DNA from: Planosporangium mesophilum
Lineage (GTDB): Bacteria > Actinomycetota > Actinomycetes > Mycobacteriales > Micromonosporaceae
NCBI RefSeq assembly: GCF_016863255.1
Contig: NZ_BOON01000032.1
Coordinates: 62,001-126,000, forward strand
Direction: 5' to 3'
DNA: 64,000 nucleotides
A model generated the notes under the pieces. The model was not told the origin of the DNA. It saw only the letters and a program-made list of their open reading frames with translations, and searched no databases. Numbering within the stretch: position 1 is the stretch's first letter; every line of letters begins with the position of its first letter. The position numbers and the translations under genes were made by a program. Positions 25,657 through 63,931 of this stretch are shown piece after piece.

Positions 25657-26578
25657 GCAGCAGCTCCACGCCGGACGGGAGGGTGCCGCGCTGCCGGCTC
25701 TCCTCCAGGTACGCGAAGAGCGCGTCGCGCAGCGCCTGGGCGGCGTGCGACAGCGGGGCCTCGCGCCGGTGGGCCAGGGCGATCGTGCGCGGGATGCCCG
25801 GCGGCGCGAGGGGCGTGGAGACCAGCGACGGCCGGCCGGCGAGGACGATGCCGGGGACCACGGCGGCGCCGAGTCCGGCCTCGACGAGGCTGAGGACGGC
25901 GTCCATCTCGCCGCCCTCGACGGTGAACGACGGGGTGAAGCCGGCCCGGCGGCAGGCTTCGAGGGTGGTGTCGCGCAGGTCGTAGCCGGCGCGGAACATC
26001 ACCAGCGGCTGGTCGCGCAGGTCGGTGACGCGCAGCGCGCCGTCCGGGGTGGGCAGCGAGGTGGTGGAGGCGACGACGAGGCTCTCCCGTACCAGCGGCT
26101 CGGTCAGCAGGGCGGGGTCGGCACCGTCGGTGGGCTGCACGATCAGGGCCAGGTCCAGCCCGCCCTGGCCCAGGTTGCGGACCAGGTCCTGCGAGCCGCC
26201 CTCCTCGATGTACAGCTCGATCTCGGGGAACTCGGAGTGGAAGCGGCGCAGCAGCCTCGGTACCAGCGACACGCACAGGCTGGGTGTGGCCCCGAGCCGC
26301 ACCCGGCCCCGGCGCAGCCCGACGAGGTTTCCGACCTCCCGGCGGGCGGTGTCGACGTCGGCGAGGATCCGGATGGCGAGCGGGAGCAGGGTTTCCCCGG
26401 CGGCGGTCAGGACCACGTTTCCCCGCCCGCGCTCGAACAGCGGCGCGCCGAGGTCCGCCTCGAGGCTGTGAATCTGCTTACTCAGAGAAGGCTGCGCGAC
26501 CCCGACCTTTTCGGCGGCTTGAGTGAAATGTCGGGTTTTTGCCACTGCGACGAAGTATCGGAGCTGCTGTAGCTGCAC
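25652..26578 (-). CDS. LysR-family transcriptional regulator
   Basis: 308-residue LysR regulator with an N-terminal winged helix (LRYFVAVAKTRHFTQAAEKVGVAQPSLSKQI in two parts across residues 6-36) and a periplasmic-binding-protein-like effector domain. It is divergent from sdhC, the arrangement usual for this regulator in actinomycetes, and probably controls succinate dehydrogenase expression in response to carbon or oxygen state (inference). The ATG at 26578 is 5 bp from a T-N11-A palindrome, so autoregulation is likely. Confidence 0.92.
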   Translation of the reverse strand: MQLQQLRYFVAVAKTRHFTQAAEKVGVAQPSLSKQIHSLEADLGAPLFERGRGNVVLTAAGETLLPLAIRILADVDTARREVGNLVGLRRGRVRLGATPSLCVSLVPRLLRRFHSEFPEIELYIEEGGSQDLVRNLGQGGLDLALIVQPTDGADPALLTEPLVRESLVVASTTSLPTPDGALRVTDLRDQPLVMFRAGYDLRDTTLEACRRAGFTPSFTVEGGEMDAVLSLVEAGLGAAVVPGIVLAGRPSLVSTPLAPPGIPRTIALAHRREAPLSHAAQALRDALFAYLEESRQRGTLPSGVELLR

Positions 26579-44024: not shown

Positions 44025-45461
44025 TCAGGTGCGCTTGTACTTCTTGATGGAGCTGTCCCGCGCGATCTCGTCGGCGCCTCGCTGGCACTGCTCCACGAAC
44101 TGGGCCGGGTTGATCCGCTTGGTCATCAGGTCGCCGCAGGCCGCGTCGACCAGGGTGCGCTCCAGCTTGCGGTAGTAGGAGTTGTACACCCAGTTGAAGG
44201 TCTTGTCGCCGGAGGCCTTCATCACCTTCGTCGCCGACTGCAGTCCCGGCGGCAGCGTCAGGCCCTCCTCGGCGCCCTGCACCGCGGTGAGGCTGCTGAC
44301 CCGCTTGGTGAAGTCGGCGGCGCCCTTGCGCGACAGCATGACGCGCAGGTACTCCAGGCCGCCGGGTACGTTCTTCGCCTTGGACGGCACGATGAACGGC
44401 TCACCCGAGGTGCCGCGCATCGCCTCGAACGGCAGCTTGTCGCCCTTGGTCAGGCTCGGCGTCGGCGCCACGGCCATCTGGAAGCCGGCGGGGGCGACCG
44501 CCTTCTGCTCGTTCTCCAGCCAGGAGCCGCAGGAGATGAAGACCGCGTTGCCCCGGCACCACTCGGTCTGCGACTGGATGTGGTCCATGCCCTCGGAGCC
44601 GGGCAGGATGTACCCGTCGACGGCGAGCTGGTAGTACGCCTCGGCGGCGGTCTTGATCGCGTCGTGCTTCCAGGCGTTGGGCTCGAGGTTGTCGATGGCG
44701 ACCAGAATGTCGGGGCCGGCCAGCTTGGCCGCCGCGGACAGGATCGGCCAGCTCATGTACCGCGGGTGCTTGCCCTGGTAGGTCCAGGGCGCCAGCCCGG
44801 CCGCCTTGATCTGCCTGCACAGCGCGATCATCTCGTCCCAGGTCTTCGGGTACTGCCAGCCGCGGTCGGCGAGTAGCTTGCCCGAGTACCAGATGCCGTA
44901 CGCGGTGTAGGTGTAGTTGAGGGCCATGGTCTTGCCGTCGTACGTACCGGGCAGCAGCGCGCCGGGCAGCAGCGTCTGGCGGACCGTCTTCTTCGGGTCG
45001 TCCAGGCTCGGCGCGTCGAGCAGCGGCGCCAGGTCGCTCAGCGCTCCCTGCGAGACCAGGCCGTTGAAGTCGATCTGGTTGCCGCCCGAGTTGTTGACGA
45101 CGTCCGGCGGGCTGCCGTCGACGAAGCGCGGCTGGAGCGTCTTGGAGATCTCGATGGTCGCGGAGTGCTTCACCTCCGCCTTCGGGTAGCGCTCCTTGTA
45201 CATCGCCTCGTGCGCCTTGGCGTACTCCTCGCCGAAGCCGCCGTTGAAGATGACCACCTCCAGCGGTGCGCTCTCCGATACGCCGAGGGGGTTGGCGCTG
45301 TTCTTCGCGCCGCCCGCCGCCTTGTCGTTGCCACCTCCGCCGCCCATGGCGCACGCCGACAGAACCCCGCCGCCGGTGGCGGCGAGGACCCCGGCCGCCG
45401 TGGCGCGCTGGAGGAGATCGCGGCGGCTGACGGACGAATCACTGGCACTCGGTGCTGACAT
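44025..45461 (-). CDS. Extracellular sugar-binding lipoprotein (NgcE family)
   Basis: 478-residue solute-binding protein with a twin-arginine/lipoprotein leader (SRRDLLQRATAAGVLAAT, lipobox LSAC) and a type 1 binding fold (LEVVIFNGGFGEEYAKAHEAMY, later NYTYTAYGIWYSGKLL, WTYQGKHPRYMSWP). The sequence resembles NgcE, the GlcNAc/chitobiose receptor of streptomycetes. Placed beside murQ, a murR-like gene and two wall hydrolases, the ligand may instead be MurNAc or a MurNAc disaccharide (inference). AGGAG precedes the ATG. Confidence 0.9.
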   Translation of the reverse strand: MSAPSASDSSVSRRDLLQRATAAGVLAATGGGVLSACAMGGGGGNDKAAGGAKNSANPLGVSESAPLEVVIFNGGFGEEYAKAHEAMYKERYPKAEVKHSATIEISKTLQPRFVDGSPPDVVNNSGGNQIDFNGLVSQGALSDLAPLLDAPSLDDPKKTVRQTLLPGALLPGTYDGKTMALNYTYTAYGIWYSGKLLADRGWQYPKTWDEMIALCRQIKAAGLAPWTYQGKHPRYMSWPILSAAAKLAGPDILVAIDNLEPNAWKHDAIKTAAEAYYQLAVDGYILPGSEGMDHIQSQTEWCRGNAVFISCGSWLENEQKAVAPAGFQMAVAPTPSLTKGDKLPFEAMRGTSGEPFIVPSKAKNVPGGLEYLRVMLSRKGAADFTKRVSSLTAVQGAEEGLTLPPGLQSATKVMKASGDKTFNWVYNSYYRKLERTLVDAACGDLMTKRINPAQFVEQCQRGADEIARDSSIKKYKRT

Positions 45462-55845: not shown

Positions 55846-56586
55846 TTACAGGTTGCGCTCGGCGTACACCCGCATGGCGTCACGCACGAACTCCGCCGTG
55901 CCGGCACCGTGCCGGTCGTAGTTCGCCGTGAACCGCGGGTCGGCGACGTACATCTCGCCCAGCCCGATCACGTACTCCTTCGTCGGGTTCATCGTGATCG
56001 ACAGCCAGTCGACGTGACGCCGGACGATCTCCTGCACCTCGTCGCCGTCAACGGCCGTACCCGCCAGGTACGCCGTGCCGTAGTCCTTCGCGATGTCGAG
56101 ATGCCGCTGCTGGTACGCCTTCTTCTCGGCGTCGCTGAGCGAGCGCCACCAGCGGTCGGCCTTCTCGTACGCCTTGCGGCCCCAGCGCTCGGTCACCTCC
56201 TGCTCGTACCGGCTGTGGTCGAACCCGTCGAACACCTCCTCCGCCATCAGTTGCTCACCTCCTTCCGTCTTCCGCAGGGTCGTCTTCACCGACTCGATCT
56301 GCCGCCCGATCCGCTCGCGCTCCTGCTCCAGCAGCGCCAGATGGGTGCGCAGCGCGGCGACGGTGTCCCGCTGCCCGTCGAGCACCTCGGCGATGGCCGG
56401 CAGTCCGAGACCGAGGTCCCGCAGCAGCAGGATCCGCTGCAGCCGGACCAGGCGGTCCTGGTCGTAGTACCGATACCCGTTGCCGCCGATCCGGCTCGGT
56501 TCGAGCAGCCCGACCTGGCCGTAGTGGCGTAGCGTGCGACTGGTGGTACCGGCCAGGCGCGCGATCTCCTGGATCGACCACTCCAT
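55846..56586 (-). CDS. MerR-family regulator with TipAS-type ligand domain
   Basis: 246-residue TipAL-like activator. The N-terminal MerR helix-turn-helix (SIQEIARLAGTTSRTLRHYGQVGLL) is followed by a long dimer coiled coil (about 75-115) and a C-terminal TipAS domain (WGRKAYEKADRWWRSLSDAEKK, YVADPRFTANYDRHGAGTAEFVRDAM). TipAS proteins trap thiopeptide antibiotics; in this copy the usual capture cysteine is not seen, so ligand binding may be non-covalent. Its promoter shows a MerR-type 19-bp spacer with palindrome, indicating autoactivation. Confidence 0.92.
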   Translation of the reverse strand: MEWSIQEIARLAGTTSRTLRHYGQVGLLEPSRIGGNGYRYYDQDRLVRLQRILLLRDLGLGLPAIAEVLDGQRDTVAALRTHLALLEQERERIGRQIESVKTTLRKTEGGEQLMAEEVFDGFDHSRYEQEVTERWGRKAYEKADRWWRSLSDAEKKAYQQRHLDIAKDYGTAYLAGTAVDGDEVQEIVRRHVDWLSITMNPTKEYVIGLGEMYVADPRFTANYDRHGAGTAEFVRDAMRVYAERNL

Positions 56587-56709: not shown

Positions 56710-57471
56710 GTGTCGGTCGGCTCGGAGGCGTGGCACGCCGCCCGCGCAGCGGCGGCCGCGGCGCGGGTGGAGATCGCCGAGTTCTCCGGCCCCTCCGTGC
56801 CGATCGTCCAGGACATCGTCGACCAGGTCTGGGGGCCCGGGCAGGCACCGCACCCCAGCCTGCTGCTGGCGCTCGCCCACGCCGGTAATCCGCTGCTGGT
56901 GGCGACCCGCGACGGGCGCCCGGCCGGTCTCGCGCTCGGCTTCCTGGGCTGGAGCGGTGGCTTCCACGTCCACTCCCACATGACGGCCGTGACCGGCGGC
57001 GAGCGCTCCGGCGGCGTGGGTTACGCGCTCAAGCTGTGGCAGCGGGCCGTCTGCCTGCGGGCGGGCATCGACGAGGTGCGCTGGACCTACGACCCGCTCA
57101 TCGCCCGCAACGCGCACTTCAACCTCGTGAAGCTCGGCGCCGAGGTGGTGGCGTTCCGGCCGGACTTCTACGGGGCGATGGACGACACCGTCAACGCCGG
57201 CGACCGCAGCGACCGGTTCGAGGTGTCGTGGCGGCTGCGCTCGGAGCGGGTACTGGAGGCGGTCGCCGGGCGGCGGCGGCCGTTGGACCACGCCGCCGGG
57301 TCACTCGACATTCCCGTCGACTACGAGCAGCTGCGGCGTACCGCGCCGGACGAGGCCGCCGCGACCCGGCTGCGGGTACGCGAGGCCCTGGAGCGGGCCT
57401 GGTCGGCGGGGCTGGGCGTGGACTGGTCGCAGGGCCGGTACGTCTTCGTCGACCGCGAGGCCGCGCGGTGA
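56710..57471 (+). CDS. Predicted GNAT-superfamily acetyltransferase-like protein
   Basis: 253-residue protein of the COG3375 type. It contains PLLVATRDGRPAGLALGFLGW, HVHSHMTAVTGGERSGGVGYALKLWQRA (acyl-CoA loop-like, GGVG) and IDEVRWTYDPLIARNAHFNLVKLGA, the signature stretch of this group. GTG at 56710 follows GGGAGG. Divergent from the MerR gene. Substrate unknown; no partner downstream. Confidence 0.8.
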   Translation: MSVGSEAWHAARAAAAAARVEIAEFSGPSVPIVQDIVDQVWGPGQAPHPSLLLALAHAGNPLLVATRDGRPAGLALGFLGWSGGFHVHSHMTAVTGGERSGGVGYALKLWQRAVCLRAGIDEVRWTYDPLIARNAHFNLVKLGAEVVAFRPDFYGAMDDTVNAGDRSDRFEVSWRLRSERVLEAVAGRRRPLDHAAGSLDIPVDYEQLRRTAPDEAAATRLRVREALERAWSAGLGVDWSQGRYVFVDREAAR

Positions 57472-58210
57472 GTCCCGGCGCCGTCGGCGGCATCGCAATA
57501 GCAGGATGTCCCCGATCCGGGGATAGGCGCCGACGCTCCCGGCGCGGAATCATTGCCCTCGCTGCGGCTACGAAAGGTGATCGTACGGCGACTGACCGGC
57601 GCATTGTTTTGCCTGAATGGGTAATCGGGCGAGGCGGCGGGCGTTGACCGGCTGTGCCGCGTATGTACGGTACCGGCTGGTTGTCGGTTCTTGCATGTCG
57701 CCATTTGTAGCTAATCGATCAACGCATTGTCATAATCTTGATCGTCGTAGCGTTCGCGGTGACGACGGCAACACTCCGCCATCGGGCGTGCTCCGCTGCC
57801 GGAACCCGGCCCTGACCTGTTGATTTCGCCCCTGCGGCGGCTTATCCGACATGACGCTTTCGTCGCTTGTGGACCTGTTATTTGCGCCGATTCGGCCGTT
57901 ATGGGTGGTCAAGTGCATTGTCGGTGATATATGTCACGCCTGATTCCACAAAGGTCCCCTGTCCTCAATGCAGGCCGTCTCCCTAAGCTCCTGGTGCCCG
58001 CTGATCGGTCGTATTCTCAGCGGGCACTTTTGCTGTGCGAAAGGGGATGGCAACCGCGCGTAATCGGTATGCCGAGGCGACCTGATGATGACCGAATCGT
58101 CTATTGCGACGATTCCGATGCGGTGTCAATGTCGCAGTCTGCGGTGATCGACCGCTCGGGGTCGGGGGTTTTGACGTGCCCCCATGGGGCGACAACTGGA
58201 GGACTCGCTG
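57472..58210 (+). other. Lower-GC intergenic region ahead of the glycosyltransferase operon
   Basis: About 740 bp with markedly more A and T than its surroundings and no frame with actinomycete codon bias. It contains a TATAAT-like tCATAAT near 57730, a GTGATATATGTCAC palindrome-like stretch near 57927, and an intrinsic terminator at 57994-58031. It may hold a leader RNA, a small RNA gene or promoters for the operon. No named riboswitch was recognised. Confidence 0.5.
57994..58031 (+). terminator. Intrinsic terminator with T run
   Basis: GTGCCCGCTGA pairs with TCAGCGGGCAC (11 bp) around a 12-nt loop, followed by TTTT. It is the only hairpin in the window with a clear U tract. It lies 180 bp before the first glycosyltransferase gene on the same strand and can end a short upstream RNA or attenuate the operon. 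Confidence 0.8.
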
Positions 58211-59212
58211 ATGAATCGTGCTTTCGACCCGGGTGTTCAGCCTGCCCGGGAGGGCCGATCCCCGACCGTCAGCGTCATCGTCCCCACCCTCAACGAGGAG
58301 CAGAATCTCCCGTACGTGTTCGAGCGGTTACCGGAAGGCATATCCGAGGTGATCCTGGTCGACGGCGGCTCGGTCGACCGGACCGTCGAGGTGGCCCGCG
58401 AACTGCATCCGCCGATCAAGGTCGTGCACCAGACGCGCACCGGCAAGGGCAATGCCCTGGCGTGCGGCTTCGCGGCGAGCGCCGGGGACATCCTCGTCAT
58501 GATCGACGCGGACGGGTCGACGGACCCGTCCGAGATCCCTCGCTTCATCGACGCCCTGCTGGCGGGCGCGGACTACGCCAAAGGCTCCCGGTTTCGGCCG
58601 GGCGGCGGCAGCCACGACATCACCCGGCTGCGGCGGCTGGGCAACCGCGGCCTCAACGGCATCGTGAACGTGCTGTTCGGCACCAGATTCACCGACCTGT
58701 GTTACGGCTACAACGCCTTCTGGCGCAGTGCCCTGCCGTACCTCGACCTCCCCGACGTCGACCTGCCGCGGTCGGCCGACGGGCAGAAGCTGTGGGGTGA
58801 CGGGTTTGAGATCGAAACCCTGATCACGGTACGGGCGGCGCGGCACAAGCTGCGCATCCAGGAAGTCGCGAGCGTCGAGTTCCCCCGGCTGCACGGGGTC
58901 AGCAACCTCAACGCGGTCAGCGACGGCATCCGGGTGCTGCGCACGATCTTCCGCGAGTACCGGCGGGAGAAGCCGCAGCCGTCCGTTCCCGGGCCGGTCG
59001 GCGCCGCGTCGGGCGCGGCGCCGGCGACGGAGTCTGCGGTGCCGGCGACGGAGTCCGCGGCGCCGGCGACGGAGTCGGTCGCCCGGCCGACGAACGGCCA
59101 CCGCGCGGGTACCGAGCGCCACGGCGTCCCCTTGTCGCCGCTGAAGATACCGGCCCAGCGGCGGTCCGCCCCGCCGCGTCGCGAGGTCGATGTCGTGACC
59201 GCCGAGGAGTAA
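58211..59212 (+). CDS. Family 2 glycosyltransferase (polyprenol-phosphate-type)
   Basis: 333-residue GT2 enzyme. The N-terminal GT-A fold has VSVIVPTLNEEQNLPYVFE, VDGGSVDRT and the metal motif MIDADGSTDPSEI, as in dolichol/undecaprenol-phosphate sugar transferases; LWGDGFEIETLITVRAA is also typical. No membrane helices. The C-tail is low complexity with three 7-residue PATESA repeats (21-bp DNA repeats at 59020-59082). GGAGGA precedes ATG 58211. First gene of a cell-surface polysaccharide operon. Confidence 0.9.
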   Translation: MNRAFDPGVQPAREGRSPTVSVIVPTLNEEQNLPYVFERLPEGISEVILVDGGSVDRTVEVARELHPPIKVVHQTRTGKGNALACGFAASAGDILVMIDADGSTDPSEIPRFIDALLAGADYAKGSRFRPGGGSHDITRLRRLGNRGLNGIVNVLFGTRFTDLCYGYNAFWRSALPYLDLPDVDLPRSADGQKLWGDGFEIETLITVRAARHKLRIQEVASVEFPRLHGVSNLNAVSDGIRVLRTIFREYRREKPQPSVPGPVGAASGAAPATESAVPATESAAPATESVARPTNGHRAGTERHGVPLSPLKIPAQRRSAPPRREVDVVTAEE

Positions 59213-59220
59213 CGAGCACC

Positions 59221-60198
59221 ATGAACCACTCGGCGGTCAGCGTCGTGATCCCGTGCCACACCGAACGCCGCTGGCCTCAGCTGGTCCGTGCGGTCGGATC
59301 GGTCTTCGCCCAGCAGCCACGGCCGATCGAGGTCGTGGTCGCCGTCGACCACAACGAGACGCTGTACGAGCGGGCCGTCCGCGAGCTTCCCGGCGTGACC
59401 GTGCTCGCCAACCGCTTCCAGCGCGGGGTGTCGGGCAACCGCAACACCGGCGTCCGGCACACCACCACCGAGGTCGTCGCGCTGCTCGACGACGACGCGT
59501 ACGCCCATCCGGGCTGGCTCGCCGGCCTGGTGGCGCCGTTCGCCGACCCGGCGGTGGTGGGTACCGGGGGAGCGATCCGGCCGGACTGGGAACGCCCCCG
59601 CCCGGCGTGGTTCCCGGACGAGTTCCTGTGGGTGGTCGGCGGTTCGTACACCGGCATGCCCGCCGAGACCGCGCCCATCCGGAACGTATGGTCGGCCAGC
59701 ATGGCTGTGCGCCGCGACGTGTTCGACCTGGTGGACGGTTTCCGCGTCGGCTTCGGCAAGGTCGGCGACCGCAGCCGGCCCGAGGACACCGACCTGTGCA
59801 TCCGGATGAGCAACGCCACCGGCGGCCGCTGGATGTACGTCCCGGGCGCGCTCATCGACCACCCGGTCGAGGCGGCGCGCACCCGGCTCCGCTTCTTTCT
59901 GCACCGCTGCTACCAGGAGGGCCGCGGCAAGGTCGAGATGGCGCGGCTCAACGACGGAGGCGAGAGCCTCGGCTCGGAGCGCAGCTATCTCACCCGTACC
60001 CTGCCGCGCGCCGTCGGTCGCGGACTGGCCGACGCCGTACGGGGACGCGGCGCCGCCAACGCGGCGAAGGCCGGCGCGGTGCTGGCCGGCGTCGCGGCGG
60101 CGGCCGTCGGCGGCGTGGCCGAACTCGTACACGGGCAGCGGCCGGAGCGGGTCAGGCCCGCCGTGGCAGTGAACGCCGGCGCGGAGGCTCGCCAATGA
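59221..60198 (+). CDS. Family 2 glycosyltransferase
   Basis: 325-residue GT2 enzyme: VSVVIPCHTERRWPQLVRAVGSV, GVSGNRNTGVRH, the DxD-type LLDDDAYAHPGW and a later EDTDLCIRM. The C-terminus has a hydrophobic segment (AGAVLAGVAAAAVGGVAELV) that may attach it to the membrane. Starts 8 bp after the preceding gene; its stop overlaps the next start. Probably adds a sugar to an extracellular polysaccharide. Confidence 0.9.
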   Translation: MNHSAVSVVIPCHTERRWPQLVRAVGSVFAQQPRPIEVVVAVDHNETLYERAVRELPGVTVLANRFQRGVSGNRNTGVRHTTTEVVALLDDDAYAHPGWLAGLVAPFADPAVVGTGGAIRPDWERPRPAWFPDEFLWVVGGSYTGMPAETAPIRNVWSASMAVRRDVFDLVDGFRVGFGKVGDRSRPEDTDLCIRMSNATGGRWMYVPGALIDHPVEAARTRLRFFLHRCYQEGRGKVEMARLNDGGESLGSERSYLTRTLPRAVGRGLADAVRGRGAANAAKAGAVLAGVAAAAVGGVAELVHGQRPERVRPAVAVNAGAEARQ

Positions 60199-61526
60199 CT
60201 CAGGCCGGGACGACCGGGGACCGCCGACTGCCCGCGCTCGTGTCCGAGGTGGACATCGTGCGACCGGTACCGGCGTTCCCCGCCGTCGACCGGGACGGCC
60301 GTCGGGTGGAGCGGGTCTGGTTACTGGTACGGGTCTTCGACGAGCCGGTCGGCTCGGTGACCGTCGACGTCCCCGATGGGGGCTTGTCCGCCACCGACGT
60401 CGCCTCCGCGGTCGACGCCGCCCACGGCCCGGCCGTACGGTCCCGGCTGGCCGCGGCCGGCGCGGTGGTCGGACCGGAGCTACCGGTCGAGGGCGTGCCG
60501 GTCGCCGGCGCCCCGGCCTTCCTCGCCCGCCGCGAGGAGGTGCTGCGCACGGCACCACCGATCACCGTCGTGGTGTGTACCCGTGAGCGCCCCGGGCCGC
60601 TGGCGCGCTGCCTGGACAGCCTGCTCGCCCAGGCCTACCCGCGGTTCCGGGTCCTGGTCGTGGACAACGCCCCGGTCACCGACGCGACCGAGCGGGTCGT
60701 CAAGGAGGCCTCCAACCGCGGCCCGGTGGAGTACCTGCGCGCGCCGCTGCCCGGCCTGTCGTACGCCCGGAACGCGGCCGTGACGGCGGCCGGCGGCGAG
60801 ATCCTCGCCTGGCTCGACGACGACGAGGTGGCCGACCGGCACTGGCTGGCCGAGGTGGCCCGCGCGCTCGCCGACCATCCGGGCGCGGACGTGGTGTCGG
60901 GCGTGATCGTGCCGGCCGAGCTGGAGACCCGGGCCCAGATCTGGTTCGAGCAGTTCGGCGGGCACAGCAAGGGTCGCGGCTTCACCCCGGCGGTGTTCTC
61001 CCCGGCCACCGCTCACCTGCAGAGCCCGCTGTACCCGCTGCCGCCGTTCGGTACCGGGGCGAACATGACGTTCCGGCCCGGGGTCATCGAGGGCATCGGC
61101 GGGTTCGACGCGGCGCTCGGTGCCGGTACGCCGGCCATGGGGTCGGAGGACACCCTCGCGTTCACGCGCGTCCTGCTGGGCGGCGGCACGATCGTCTACC
61201 AGCCGACCGCGCTGACCTGGCACTACCACCGGCGTGACCTGGACGGGCTGCGCCGGCAGATGATCGGGTACGGCGCCGGCCTCACCGCCGCGTACACCAG
61301 CCTCATCCTGAGCGATCCGCGGGTCCTGGTCGGGCTGGCCCGGCTCGTCCCGACCGCGCTGCGTGACCTCACCTCCGATGACAGCCTGCGCTCGGCAGGT
61401 CTGGAAGCGGACTTCCCGCGCGAGCTGATGGGCGCCAACCGGCGCGGCATGCTCACCGGCCCGTTCCGCTACCTCGCCGGTCGGCGGCGCAACCGGCGGC
61501 TGCGGGCGGGGTCGGGTGGGACGTGA
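60195..61526 (+). CDS. Family 2 glycosyltransferase with N-terminal extension
   Basis: 443-residue enzyme. The first ~110 residues form an extra domain of unknown role (SEVDIVRPVPAFPAVD, VERVWLLVRVFDEPVGSV). The GT-A domain follows: ITVVVCTRERPGPLARCLDSLL, VVDNAPVTD, LSYARNAAVTAAGGEILAWLDDDEVAD and the acceptor-side GSEDTLAF. A hydrophobic stretch near the end may touch the membrane. Start overlaps the previous stop (ATGA). Confidence 0.88.
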   Translation: MTQAGTTGDRRLPALVSEVDIVRPVPAFPAVDRDGRRVERVWLLVRVFDEPVGSVTVDVPDGGLSATDVASAVDAAHGPAVRSRLAAAGAVVGPELPVEGVPVAGAPAFLARREEVLRTAPPITVVVCTRERPGPLARCLDSLLAQAYPRFRVLVVDNAPVTDATERVVKEASNRGPVEYLRAPLPGLSYARNAAVTAAGGEILAWLDDDEVADRHWLAEVARALADHPGADVVSGVIVPAELETRAQIWFEQFGGHSKGRGFTPAVFSPATAHLQSPLYPLPPFGTGANMTFRPGVIEGIGGFDAALGAGTPAMGSEDTLAFTRVLLGGGTIVYQPTALTWHYHRRDLDGLRRQMIGYGAGLTAAYTSLILSDPRVLVGLARLVPTALRDLTSDDSLRSAGLEADFPRELMGANRRGMLTGPFRYLAGRRRNRRLRAGSGGT

Positions 61527-63931
61527 CCGGCCGACAGCCCGACCGGCGCGACCCGTACGCGCCCGCGGATCCGGCCGACGCGGCCGTGTTCCGGGCGATG
61601 GGTCCGCCGCGGCAGCCCGGTGTGCCGCATCAGCCCGGTGTGCCGTATCAGCCCGGTGTGCCGCGGCAGCCGGGTCCGGTACAGCAGCCGGGACCGTCGC
61701 CGCGACAAGCTCAGCAGTCCAGACGGGACGGTGAGCCGGACCGCGGGCCGGCGCCGCACCCGCGCGATCCGCGAGCACAGCGGGACCCGCGAGCGCAGCG
61801 GGATCCGCGGGGGCAGGGCGACCCGCGGGGGCAGGGCGACCCGCGGGGGCAGGGCGACCCACGAGCCCGACGCGACGCCCCGGCCGCTCCGCCGGACGAC
61901 GCGACCGCCTTGCTGCCCAGGGTGCCGAGCCCCAGGGTTCCGCCGCCGCAGCGTCCAAGGGTTCCGCCGCCGAGCGACAGTACGGTCGTCATCCCGAAGG
62001 TGCCGGCTGCGCCGCCCGTACCACGGCCGATCCCCACGCAGCGCCGACCGCAGCCGCCCGGCGGGCCGGGCCACACGCGGGGCAGAAGGCCCGGCAGCGC
62101 GCCGCGCCGCCCACGTGCGGTCCGGCTCCCGGTCCTCGGCCTCGCCCCCCAGCTGCTGGCGCTGTCGGCGGCCGGGGTGCTGCTCGTGGCCTTCGCGTAC
62201 GCCGGTGGCCGAACCGGCGCCGCCTGGGCCAGCACGGCGTACTGGGTCGGCCAGGTGGTCGTCTACACCCCGATCGTGTTCCGGCTGCTGTCGCGCCGGC
62301 TGACCGGGGTGACCGAGTCGTTCCTGCTCGCCATGGGGCTGGCGGTCAACCAGTACATGCTCAAGTGGATGTTCAGTCCGGATCAGTTCCGGTTCCCCGA
62401 CGAGCTTCAGCACTGGCTGTCGACCACGATCGTGCTCGAGACCGGCCGGCTGTTCCAGCCCAACAGCGCGCTGCCGGTCGCGGCGCACTTCCCGGGGCTG
62501 GAGGAGATGGGCTCGGCGCTGGTCTCACTGACCGGCCTGTCGGTGACCGACGCGGGCCTGCTCACGGCCGGCGTACTGCGGCTGGTCTTCGTCGGCGCGC
62601 TGTTCATGATGGTCCGCCGCGCCGGGGGCTCCCCGTCGTTGGCCGGCGCCACCTGCGCCATCTACGCGACGGCCCTGCACTACCTGTTCTTCAACGCCAT
62701 GTACATCTACCAGACGGCGGCCCTGCCGTTCCTGATGCTGGCGATCTGGGCGACCCGGTCCTGGCGGTCCAGAGAGCCCGGGTACGTGCCGTACGCGGTG
62801 GTCGGCGTCGCGTCGGTGGCGGTGGTCGCCGTCTCCCACCACATCACGGCGATGGCGATGGTCGGCACGCTCGGCCTGCTGGCCCTCTGTGACCTGGTCT
62901 TCCCGGCGACCCACAAGCGGCGCAGCGCGCTCGCCCTCGCCGTCACGGCGGTCGTGGTCGTCGTGGCGTGGGTTCTGCTCGTCGCCAACGAGATCATCGA
63001 CTATCTCGGCGCGCCGCTGCAGTCGATGCTGGCGTCGCTGACGCAGATCTTCGCGGGCGGCGGATCGAAGGTGTCCGTCGCGCCGGGCAACCCGCTGTGG
63101 CAGCTCGGTATCCAGGCGGCGGCCCTGCTCAGCCTGCTTGTCCTGCTCGCGCGCGCCAGCTGGGTCGCGCTCCGCAAGCGTGAGCGCGACGCCTGGCAGT
63201 GGGCCGTCCTGGTCGGCTCGGTCGCGTTCTTCGCCACCAGCGGACTGCGGTTCGTGGGCGCGCAGGGCCCGGAGCTGGCCGGACGCGCGTCCACCTTCAC
63301 CTACGTACCCATGTCGATGCTGGCCGCCGCGACCATCGTGGACTGGCGACGGGGGCTGCGCCCGCACACCTGGCCCGGTCCGCTGGGCCGGCTGACGGTG
63401 AACGCGCGATGGGCCCGGCCGGCGCCGCTGGGCGCGGCGATGGCCACGCTGCTGATGCTGGCCGCGCGGGCCGGCGGCTGGCCCCCGTACTGGGAGCACC
63501 TGCCGGGCAAGTACCTGGTGTCCGGGTTCGAGCGCTCGGTCGTCGGGGAGAACGTGACCGCCGCCTGGTGGACGGGGGAGGCGCTGGGGTGGCGCAACCG
63601 GTTCGCGGCCGACCTGAGCGGGGCGACGCTGGTCTCCACCTACGGCCGTCAGGACCCGGTCGGTGAGGCGGCGGACCTGTACTACGATCCCGTCTGGGGC
63701 CTGCGGGACCAGCAGATCCTCCAGTCGCTGCAGATCGACTACCTGTGGGTCGACGTGCGGATGTCGCAGCAGCTTCCCGCGTCCGGGGTCTACTTCGTCG
63801 TCGACCCGAAGGCTCAGCGGCACGTGACCCCGGTGCCACTGGAGAACCTGGTCAAGTTCGACCACATCCCGGGGGTCAACCTCGTCTACGACAGCGGGAA
63901 CATCCGGATCTACGACGTGAGGGGCGCATGA
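61523..63931 (+). CDS. Polytopic membrane protein with low-complexity N-terminus
   Basis: 802-residue protein. Residues ~1-190 are a cytoplasmic Pro/Gln/Arg-rich tail with QPGVPHQ- and RGQGDP-type repeats (18-bp DNA repeats near 61801-61860). From ~195 about 11-12 transmembrane helices follow, with an extracellular C-terminal domain (VVGENVTAAWWTGEAL onward). The layout resembles GT-C or polysaccharide polymerase proteins, but no catalytic motif is certain. GTG start overlaps the preceding stop; its own stop overlaps the next gene. Confidence 0.8.
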   Translation: MTGRQPDRRDPYAPADPADAAVFRAMGPPRQPGVPHQPGVPYQPGVPRQPGPVQQPGPSPRQAQQSRRDGEPDRGPAPHPRDPRAQRDPRAQRDPRGQGDPRGQGDPRGQGDPRARRDAPAAPPDDATALLPRVPSPRVPPPQRPRVPPPSDSTVVIPKVPAAPPVPRPIPTQRRPQPPGGPGHTRGRRPGSAPRRPRAVRLPVLGLAPQLLALSAAGVLLVAFAYAGGRTGAAWASTAYWVGQVVVYTPIVFRLLSRRLTGVTESFLLAMGLAVNQYMLKWMFSPDQFRFPDELQHWLSTTIVLETGRLFQPNSALPVAAHFPGLEEMGSALVSLTGLSVTDAGLLTAGVLRLVFVGALFMMVRRAGGSPSLAGATCAIYATALHYLFFNAMYIYQTAALPFLMLAIWATRSWRSREPGYVPYAVVGVASVAVVAVSHHITAMAMVGTLGLLALCDLVFPATHKRRSALALAVTAVVVVVAWVLLVANEIIDYLGAPLQSMLASLTQIFAGGGSKVSVAPGNPLWQLGIQAAALLSLLVLLARASWVALRKRERDAWQWAVLVGSVAFFATSGLRFVGAQGPELAGRASTFTYVPMSMLAAATIVDWRRGLRPHTWPGPLGRLTVNARWARPAPLGAAMATLLMLAARAGGWPPYWEHLPGKYLVSGFERSVVGENVTAAWWTGEALGWRNRFAADLSGATLVSTYGRQDPVGEAADLYYDPVWGLRDQQILQSLQIDYLWVDVRMSQQLPASGVYFVVDPKAQRHVTPVPLENLVKFDHIPGVNLVYDSGNIRIYDVRGA

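Follow-up and report, generated by a model that had tools for sequence, protein, structure and literature searches.

Transcription-attenuation leaders place a terminator within a long 5' UTR, and RfaH and LoaP are NusG paralogs that control the read-through of polysaccharide operons. A parallel might be drawn between these systems and the DNA ahead of a polysaccharide operon of Planosporangium mesophilum (GCF_016863255.1, contig NZ_BOON01000032.1), for which a window of 64,000 nt, corresponding to positions 62,001–126,000 of the contig on the forward strand, was analyzed. As in attenuation leaders, a promoter-like site is followed by a long, apparently untranslated leader and a predicted intrinsic terminator before the first gene, and as in the RfaH/LoaP systems this terminator stands ahead of a long polysaccharide operon. 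Unlike the attenuation leaders, no antiterminator fold, convincing regulatory leader peptide, known ligand domain or conservation was seen here, and unlike the RfaH/LoaP systems the genome was found to carry one NusG gene.

Actinoplanes missouriensis is presumably a member of the same family as the source organism. In the available parts of the reports on it, polysaccharide clusters termed wps-1 to wps-3, gsf and imp are described (PMC13390465, PMC12691653), which are like the present operon as polysaccharide clusters; compared by description, their gene content offers no obvious match to the GTa-GTb-GTc-Mem order found here. Those parts hold no description of the leaders of the wps, gsf and imp clusters (PMC13390465, PMC12691653), and the leader studied here is mentioned neither in them nor in the available part of a study of Streptomyces transcript ends (PMC13390465, PMC12691653, PMC12207403). 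Judged by title, a literature search returned no work on the attenuation of a polysaccharide operon in actinomycetes.

The operon opens with three family 2 glycosyltransferases recognized by domain search, namely GTa (58211–59212), GTb (59221–60198) and GTc (60195–61526), followed by Mem (61523–63931), a large protein without a Pfam or NCBIfam match that appears by eye to be a membrane protein; all four lie on the forward strand. Past the window, the operon goes on with genes for a DUF1616 protein, for a protein of 518 aa that looks like a flippase by eye and lacks a Pfam match, and for one more family 2 glycosyltransferase; farther on, outside the operon, lie a glycoside hydrolase 26, a polysaccharide deacetylase, a DpgA-type synthase and a cellulase. 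The gene upstream, also on the forward strand, is an ORF of 253 aa (56710–57471) that has no Pfam or NCBIfam match, is acetyltransferase-like by eye only and has a 63% identical relative in the congener G002. Beside it, on the reverse strand (55846–56586), is a gene for a MerR-type regulator with a TipAS antibiotic-recognition domain.

The intervening 739 nt (57472–58210, no strand assigned) are the non-coding promoter and 5' leader region of the operon. Their G+C content of 60.6%, against a mean of 71.3% for the surrounding 109 kb, makes them the lowest-G+C spot in that entire stretch (10,827 windows of 739 nt, step 10), with no window outside the region as low and the second-lowest at 62.5%. 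In the first 675 nt, no frame has a coding composition: the G+C per codon position remains between 0.46 and 0.74 in the three frames, which is flat compared with the 0.70/0.51/0.90 of the downstream gene, and a hidden gene was rejected on this ground. The short ORFs at 57851–57943 and 57968–58063, the latter of which crosses the terminator hairpin discussed below, do not look like genes by eye, with neither runs of codons nor good ribosome sites seen in them; the second has no ribosome site that convinces on inspection. The low G+C content and the absence of a coding frame, both claimed in an earlier note on this DNA, are thus borne out. A repeat or mobile element was likewise rejected: with 40 of 56 candidates scored, 41 matches in the organism's own genome reach E 10 or better, and apart from the leader itself all 40 are short. 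Smaller features include a direct repeat at 57814/57872 with 19 of 25 positions identical (equalled or bettered in 2 of 60 shuffles), an inverted repeat GAATCGTC-N6-GACGATTC between the terminator and the first gene (58094–58115, no strand assigned), which may be due to chance, and a ribosome-binding site GGAGGA on the forward strand (58198–58203), recognized by eye, for the ATG at 58211. The shuffles behind the hairpin, motif, promoter and repeat counts are first-order resamplings of our own.

Within this region lies a hairpin on the forward strand (57994–58027), found by inverted-repeat listing, scan and folding, in which the arms GTGCCCGCTGA (57994–58004) and TCAGCGGGCAC (58017–58027) form 11 perfect pairs around a 12-nt loop. 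It is followed by a U-tract, TTTT (58028–58031), read from the sequence, and T accounts for 6 of the first 10 bases past the stem. Hence, both hallmarks of an intrinsic terminator, a stable G+C-rich hairpin and a U-rich tract directly after its stem, are present. The fold reaches −27.2 kcal/mol over 61 nt (z −3.9; 1 of 200 shuffles as good), its pairs retain probabilities of 0.91–1.0 within the full leader, and an equally high hairpin-plus-T score arises in 2 of 1000 shuffles when the leader alone is shuffled and in 3 of 20 when the entire window is, one strand being scored. The element is directed forward, with no T-tract past the stem visible by eye on the opposite strand. In the available part of the Streptomyces study (PMC12207403), 3–4 T are reported after the stem, strong-U-tract terminators are reported to be rare, and transcripts end at a median of 66–76 nt beyond the gene; the 6 T in 10 of the leader hairpin exceed that 3–4, and its TTTT, short by general standards, would be ample by those of Streptomyces as given there. 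As judged from its bases and predicted fold, 57994–58031 is a good terminator-like hairpin, and its release of RNA in the cell is a prediction.

A standard terminator scan misses this hairpin because the loops allowed are limited to 3–8 nt. The scan used here (stems of at least 8 with no more than one mismatch, and T at 4 or more of 6 positions) yields 17 candidates on both strands of the window, the leader hairpin included, of which 9 are on the forward strand, where it is the sole perfect stem. This number is at chance level because four shuffles gave 5–14 candidates on one strand. A reverse-strand candidate at 45387–45365, with a perfect 10-bp stem and a TTCTGT tail, outscores the leader hairpin (9.1 vs 8.4), and T-runs of five occur at 26536 and 48785. 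Thus, the predicted intrinsic terminator that the earlier note placed at 58031 stands, and its description as the only U-tract terminator of the window was an overstatement. Elsewhere in the window, at 26501–26540, a one-mismatch hairpin is followed by TTTTT and might be a second U-tract terminator, the unconstrained fold of which differs.

Upstream of the hairpin on the forward strand is a promoter-like site, TTGACC-N16-TACGGT (57644–57671, hereafter P1), the expected RNA start of which lies near 57679. It was compared with 40 ortholog leaders, drawn from 103 loci (L011–L113) by a GTb match of at least 55% identity together with a GTc match; L036, L061 and L063 were removed before counting as repeats of L013, L014 and L015, L084, L090 and L094 were also removed from the 57 comparison loci, and the related genomes among the ortholog leaders render these non-independent. 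The pattern TTGACN-N16-18-TANNNT occurs in 29 of the 40 (0.3 expected in shuffles). Its spacer is 16 nt in 28 of the 29, and its −35 element lies 110–113 nt before the start codon in 27, the other two having 90 and 100 nt. The start codons used for this spacing are preceded by a Shine-Dalgarno-like sequence and were chosen by us where several were possible, a second candidate being found 125–155 nt from the promoter in several orthologs. With a matrix of these 29 promoters, P1 scores 17.2, the highest value on the forward strand of the window (next 16.0 and 14.3) and above that of all 78 tiles of 739 nt spanning 1–57642; the consensus with a 16-nt spacer arises in 24 of 5000 leader shuffles, and with spacers of 16–18 in 54 of 5000. 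The interval between the terminator and the gene attains 2.5 at best, against 17.2 for P1. Since the matrix was built from related loci and differs little from the general TTGACN/TANNNT consensus, the match at P1 speaks for a good promoter more than for the same promoter. The remaining 11 of the 40 ortholog leaders do not exceed 9.1 with it, so that the matrix could overlook a promoter located past the terminator. Within the spacer of the conserved ortholog promoter, an operator-like palindrome, TTGACGCTACGTAGCG, is often encountered (e.g., L037, L038, L043).

The position of P1 is one respect in which this locus departs from its relatives. Actinoplanes and its relatives (29 leaders among L014, L015 and L037–L072) share with it the GTa-GTb-GTc order, an AT-rich region and TTGACN-N16-TANNNT; they differ in that the promoter is about 110 nt away from the start codon with no terminator intervening, and in that a divergent gene lies upstream, a sulfotransferase by eye in the 5 loci translated. 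Here, P1 lies 567 nt from the start codon of the first gene, and with 110–113 nt in the orthologs this amounts to roughly 450 extra nt in the leader.

Thus, a promoter match displaced relative to the orthologs, a hairpin with a U-tract and low-G+C, non-coding DNA occur together at this locus, and by its sequence the layout of an attenuator is present, with P1 at 57644, the terminator at 57994–58031 and the ATG at 58211. A terminator within a long operon leader is the best-supported account because P1, 567 nt upstream of the first gene, resembles the promoter of the orthologous operons and the terminator falls between it and the gene. Use of P1 would give a leader of about 530 nt with the terminator about 350 nt in. 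Under the attenuation reading, transcription would most likely start near 57679 from P1, and RNA polymerase, in making a leader RNA of about 530 nt, would at about 350 nt meet the intrinsic terminator at 57994–58031, which by default would release an RNA of ~350 nt; the read-through fraction would transcribe the glycosyltransferase operon, and the terminator would thereby lower, and possibly condition, its expression. We infer the use of P1, the working of the terminator, read-through into the operon and any regulation, and we regard this reading, i.e., P1 with a ~530-nt leader and a terminator ahead of the polysaccharide operon, as tentative, its chance falling somewhat short of even.

The same succession of P1, some 350 nt, a terminator and a further 180 nt would fit equally well a small RNA gene beside an operon with a promoter of its own: P1 and the terminator would bound a stand-alone ~350-nt RNA, and the operon promoter would be in 58032–58190. 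P1 and the terminator indeed form a self-contained unit, and the 180 nt left after the latter give room for the ~110-nt promoter-to-start layout of the orthologs. We nevertheless hold such a gene to be unlikely, as the leader has short matches only elsewhere in its own genome, none of the 353 other family genomes (two candidates scored in each) holds a match that convinces, no stable fold extends past the terminator, and the matrix detects no promoter-like site downstream of it.

The hairpin might also be a plain insulator, stopping read-through from the upstream gene at the end of a long 3' UTR, with the operon promoter between 58032 and 58190. Such an arrangement is seen in L011, where a 12-bp hairpin, by eye close behind the stop codon of the upstream gene, is followed by about 190 nt and then by GTa; here, too, the upstream and downstream genes run in the same direction. 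However, 523 nt with P1 among them separate the terminator from the stop codon of the upstream ORF, as against the median of 66–76 nt given for Streptomyces transcripts (PMC12207403), a nearer hairpin is available, and the absence of a promoter-like site downstream of the terminator bears on this account as well, so that we deem it improbable. The nearer structure, a large G+C-rich hairpin on the forward strand that includes the upstream ORF's stop codon (57461–57547; z −1.55, 15 of 200 shuffles as good), is a weak candidate that could possibly be a U-less terminator of that gene.

As to how an attenuated leader might be controlled, Rfam gives 0 matches at gathering scores in the window, and a search of 57300–58350 at E 10 returned a best match of E 2.6, far below the gathering score of that family. 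The whole leader folds like its shuffles (z −0.67), with no excess structure, no stable fold beyond the terminator, and neither a ligand domain nor a convincing leader peptide found in it. A mutually exclusive antiterminator fold was not found either: blocking the 3' arm of the terminator costs ~20 kcal/mol relative to the alternative fold, and in the leader cut before that arm the 5' arm pairs elsewhere with a probability of at most 0.43. A riboswitch or known RNA was rejected on these grounds, i.e., the silence of Rfam, the z-score and the ~20 kcal/mol by which the terminator is the more stable. No NusG paralog was detected, a search of the genome at a threshold of E 0.01 giving a single NusG match. 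In the lack of a built-in switching fold, any control would have to come from a trans factor or from translation that crosses the hairpin. Consequently, of the regulated leader or small RNA that the earlier note envisaged, the terminator in a long operon leader is the part best supported, and the riboswitch is the part that found no support.

The terminator appears to be peculiar to this lineage. None of the 29 ortholog leaders with the conserved promoter has a candidate between it and the gene, and within the 900 nt scanned only 3 of the 40 hold a candidate above a low cut-off of 3 (L011, L013 and L041). In L011 the score is 11.5, against 8.4 here, for the hairpin that follows, by eye, the stop codon of the gene upstream; in L041 it is 8.1, for a hairpin some 350 nt upstream of the promoter and, therefore, outside the leader RNA. 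Matches to the leader DNA in 61 genomes, its own included, were limited to the leader itself and one 25-nt match in G052, and in 354 family genomes, again its own included, to the leader itself and one 36-nt G+C-rich match in G351 (two candidates per genome scored), which on reading showed no link to the leader. A profile of 34 Actinoplanes-group leaders has its best match in the window within the leader (57835–57874), at a non-significant E of 1.4 and not collinear with the CRP-type site considered below. The proposal of a small RNA or regulated leader had named in advance, as evidence against itself, poor conservation among relatives that carry the operon, and this is largely what was found, with 0 of 29 terminators between promoter and gene and no convincing DNA match in the 353 other genomes. 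In the congener G003, a Mem gene of 78% identity is on a 3.1-kb contig that ends short of the leader, and neither the first gene nor the upstream ORF has a close match in that assembly; from these comparisons, with the G003 contig stopping short, the leader with its terminator appears to be lineage-specific.

AT-richness itself is widespread in such leaders: a 450-nt minimum of 62% G+C or less is found in 28 of the 40 ortholog leaders, and one as low as here (56.4%) in 10, with 64% as the lowest such minimum in 32 stretches inside the operon. One might, therefore, see here an ordinary promoter region, long and AT-rich, that holds several sites for regulators, among them one of CRP type at 57924, and in which the hairpin is incidental. 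That site, the palindrome GTGATATATGTCAC (57924–57937, no strand assigned), has the core GTGA-N6-TCAC and lacks the T and A that flank this core in the full consensus. The core is present once in the window (0.91 expected by chance), arises in 39 of 5000 leader shuffles, and, after first being noticed by eye in this leader, was counted in 17 of the 40 ortholog leaders (0.55 expected) and 4 of the 57 other loci (0.6 expected). Regulators of the CRP type are encoded in the genome, with 16 HTH_Crp_2 matches, 6 of them over the cut-off. Against an incidental hairpin stands the rarity of a hairpin plus U-tract by chance (2 of 1000 leader shuffles). Moreover, the CRP-type site is 280 nt downstream of P1 as opposed to about 240 nt upstream of the promoter in the orthologs, a difference in placement that makes the sites not collinear. 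Its outer bases also do not fit the full TGTGA-N6-TCACA, which is found at two other places in the genome, and no −10 element was seen by eye at the usual distances from it. An incidental hairpin is hence, in our estimation, quite improbable, and the putative CRP-type site at 57924 is suggestive as a sequence match, its function being uncertain.

Other regulator motifs are features of the ortholog leaders. In the Actinoplanes group (among L037–L065), GTGA-N6-TCAC lies about 350–400 nt upstream of the GTa match and is, by its recurrence, probably a conserved regulator site of the operon or of the divergent gene that is sulfotransferase-like by eye. The motif ACNCWGNGTNA, which we take to be BldD-like, is present in 12 of the 40 ortholog leaders (0.3 expected). 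The TcrA box of Actinoplanes missouriensis, GCA(A/C)CCG-N4-GCA(A/C)CCG, is given in the available part of the report on it (PMC12691653). Direct repeats resembling that box are seen about 400–450 nt upstream in Actinoplanes-group leaders (e.g., L043, L048, L051), strict forms in 2 and relaxed forms in 13 or 14 of the 40 ortholog leaders, with under 1 expected. The TcrA box, as well as BldD-type and some alternative sigma-factor patterns, are absent from the present leader.

The boundary of the operon is, by comparison with one congener, a real evolutionary junction. In G002, the relative of the upstream ORF is directly followed by genes that are M20 peptidase- and racemase-like by eye, and the interval from 57436 to about 76640, near which similarity resumes, spans ~19 kb here versus ~2.3 kb there; the ~19-kb segment holds the polysaccharide genes, the DpgA-type synthase and the glycoside hydrolases. 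Remnants of the G002 genes or of the Actinoplanes sulfotransferase-like gene were sought in the leader, with a best E of 1.7. As to horizontal acquisition of the operon boundary, of which the earlier note took the AT-richness to be a possible mark, the operon does lie in a segment absent from this place in G002; the AT-richness alone is no mark of foreign DNA, since the orthologous leaders are AT-rich too (28 of 40).

A fuller version of the attenuation reading would have ~450 nt and a terminator inserted in this lineage between a conserved promoter and the operon, the terminator being overcome by a factor acting in trans or by ribosomes translating a leader ORF across the hairpin, and also yielding the ~350-nt RNA; in this complete form we consider it doubtful. 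Should the hairpin be an insulator only, the region would be an ordinary one. As it stands, a promoter so displaced, with a terminator between it and the operon, may be seen as a concrete case, open to testing, of one lineage gaining a leader.
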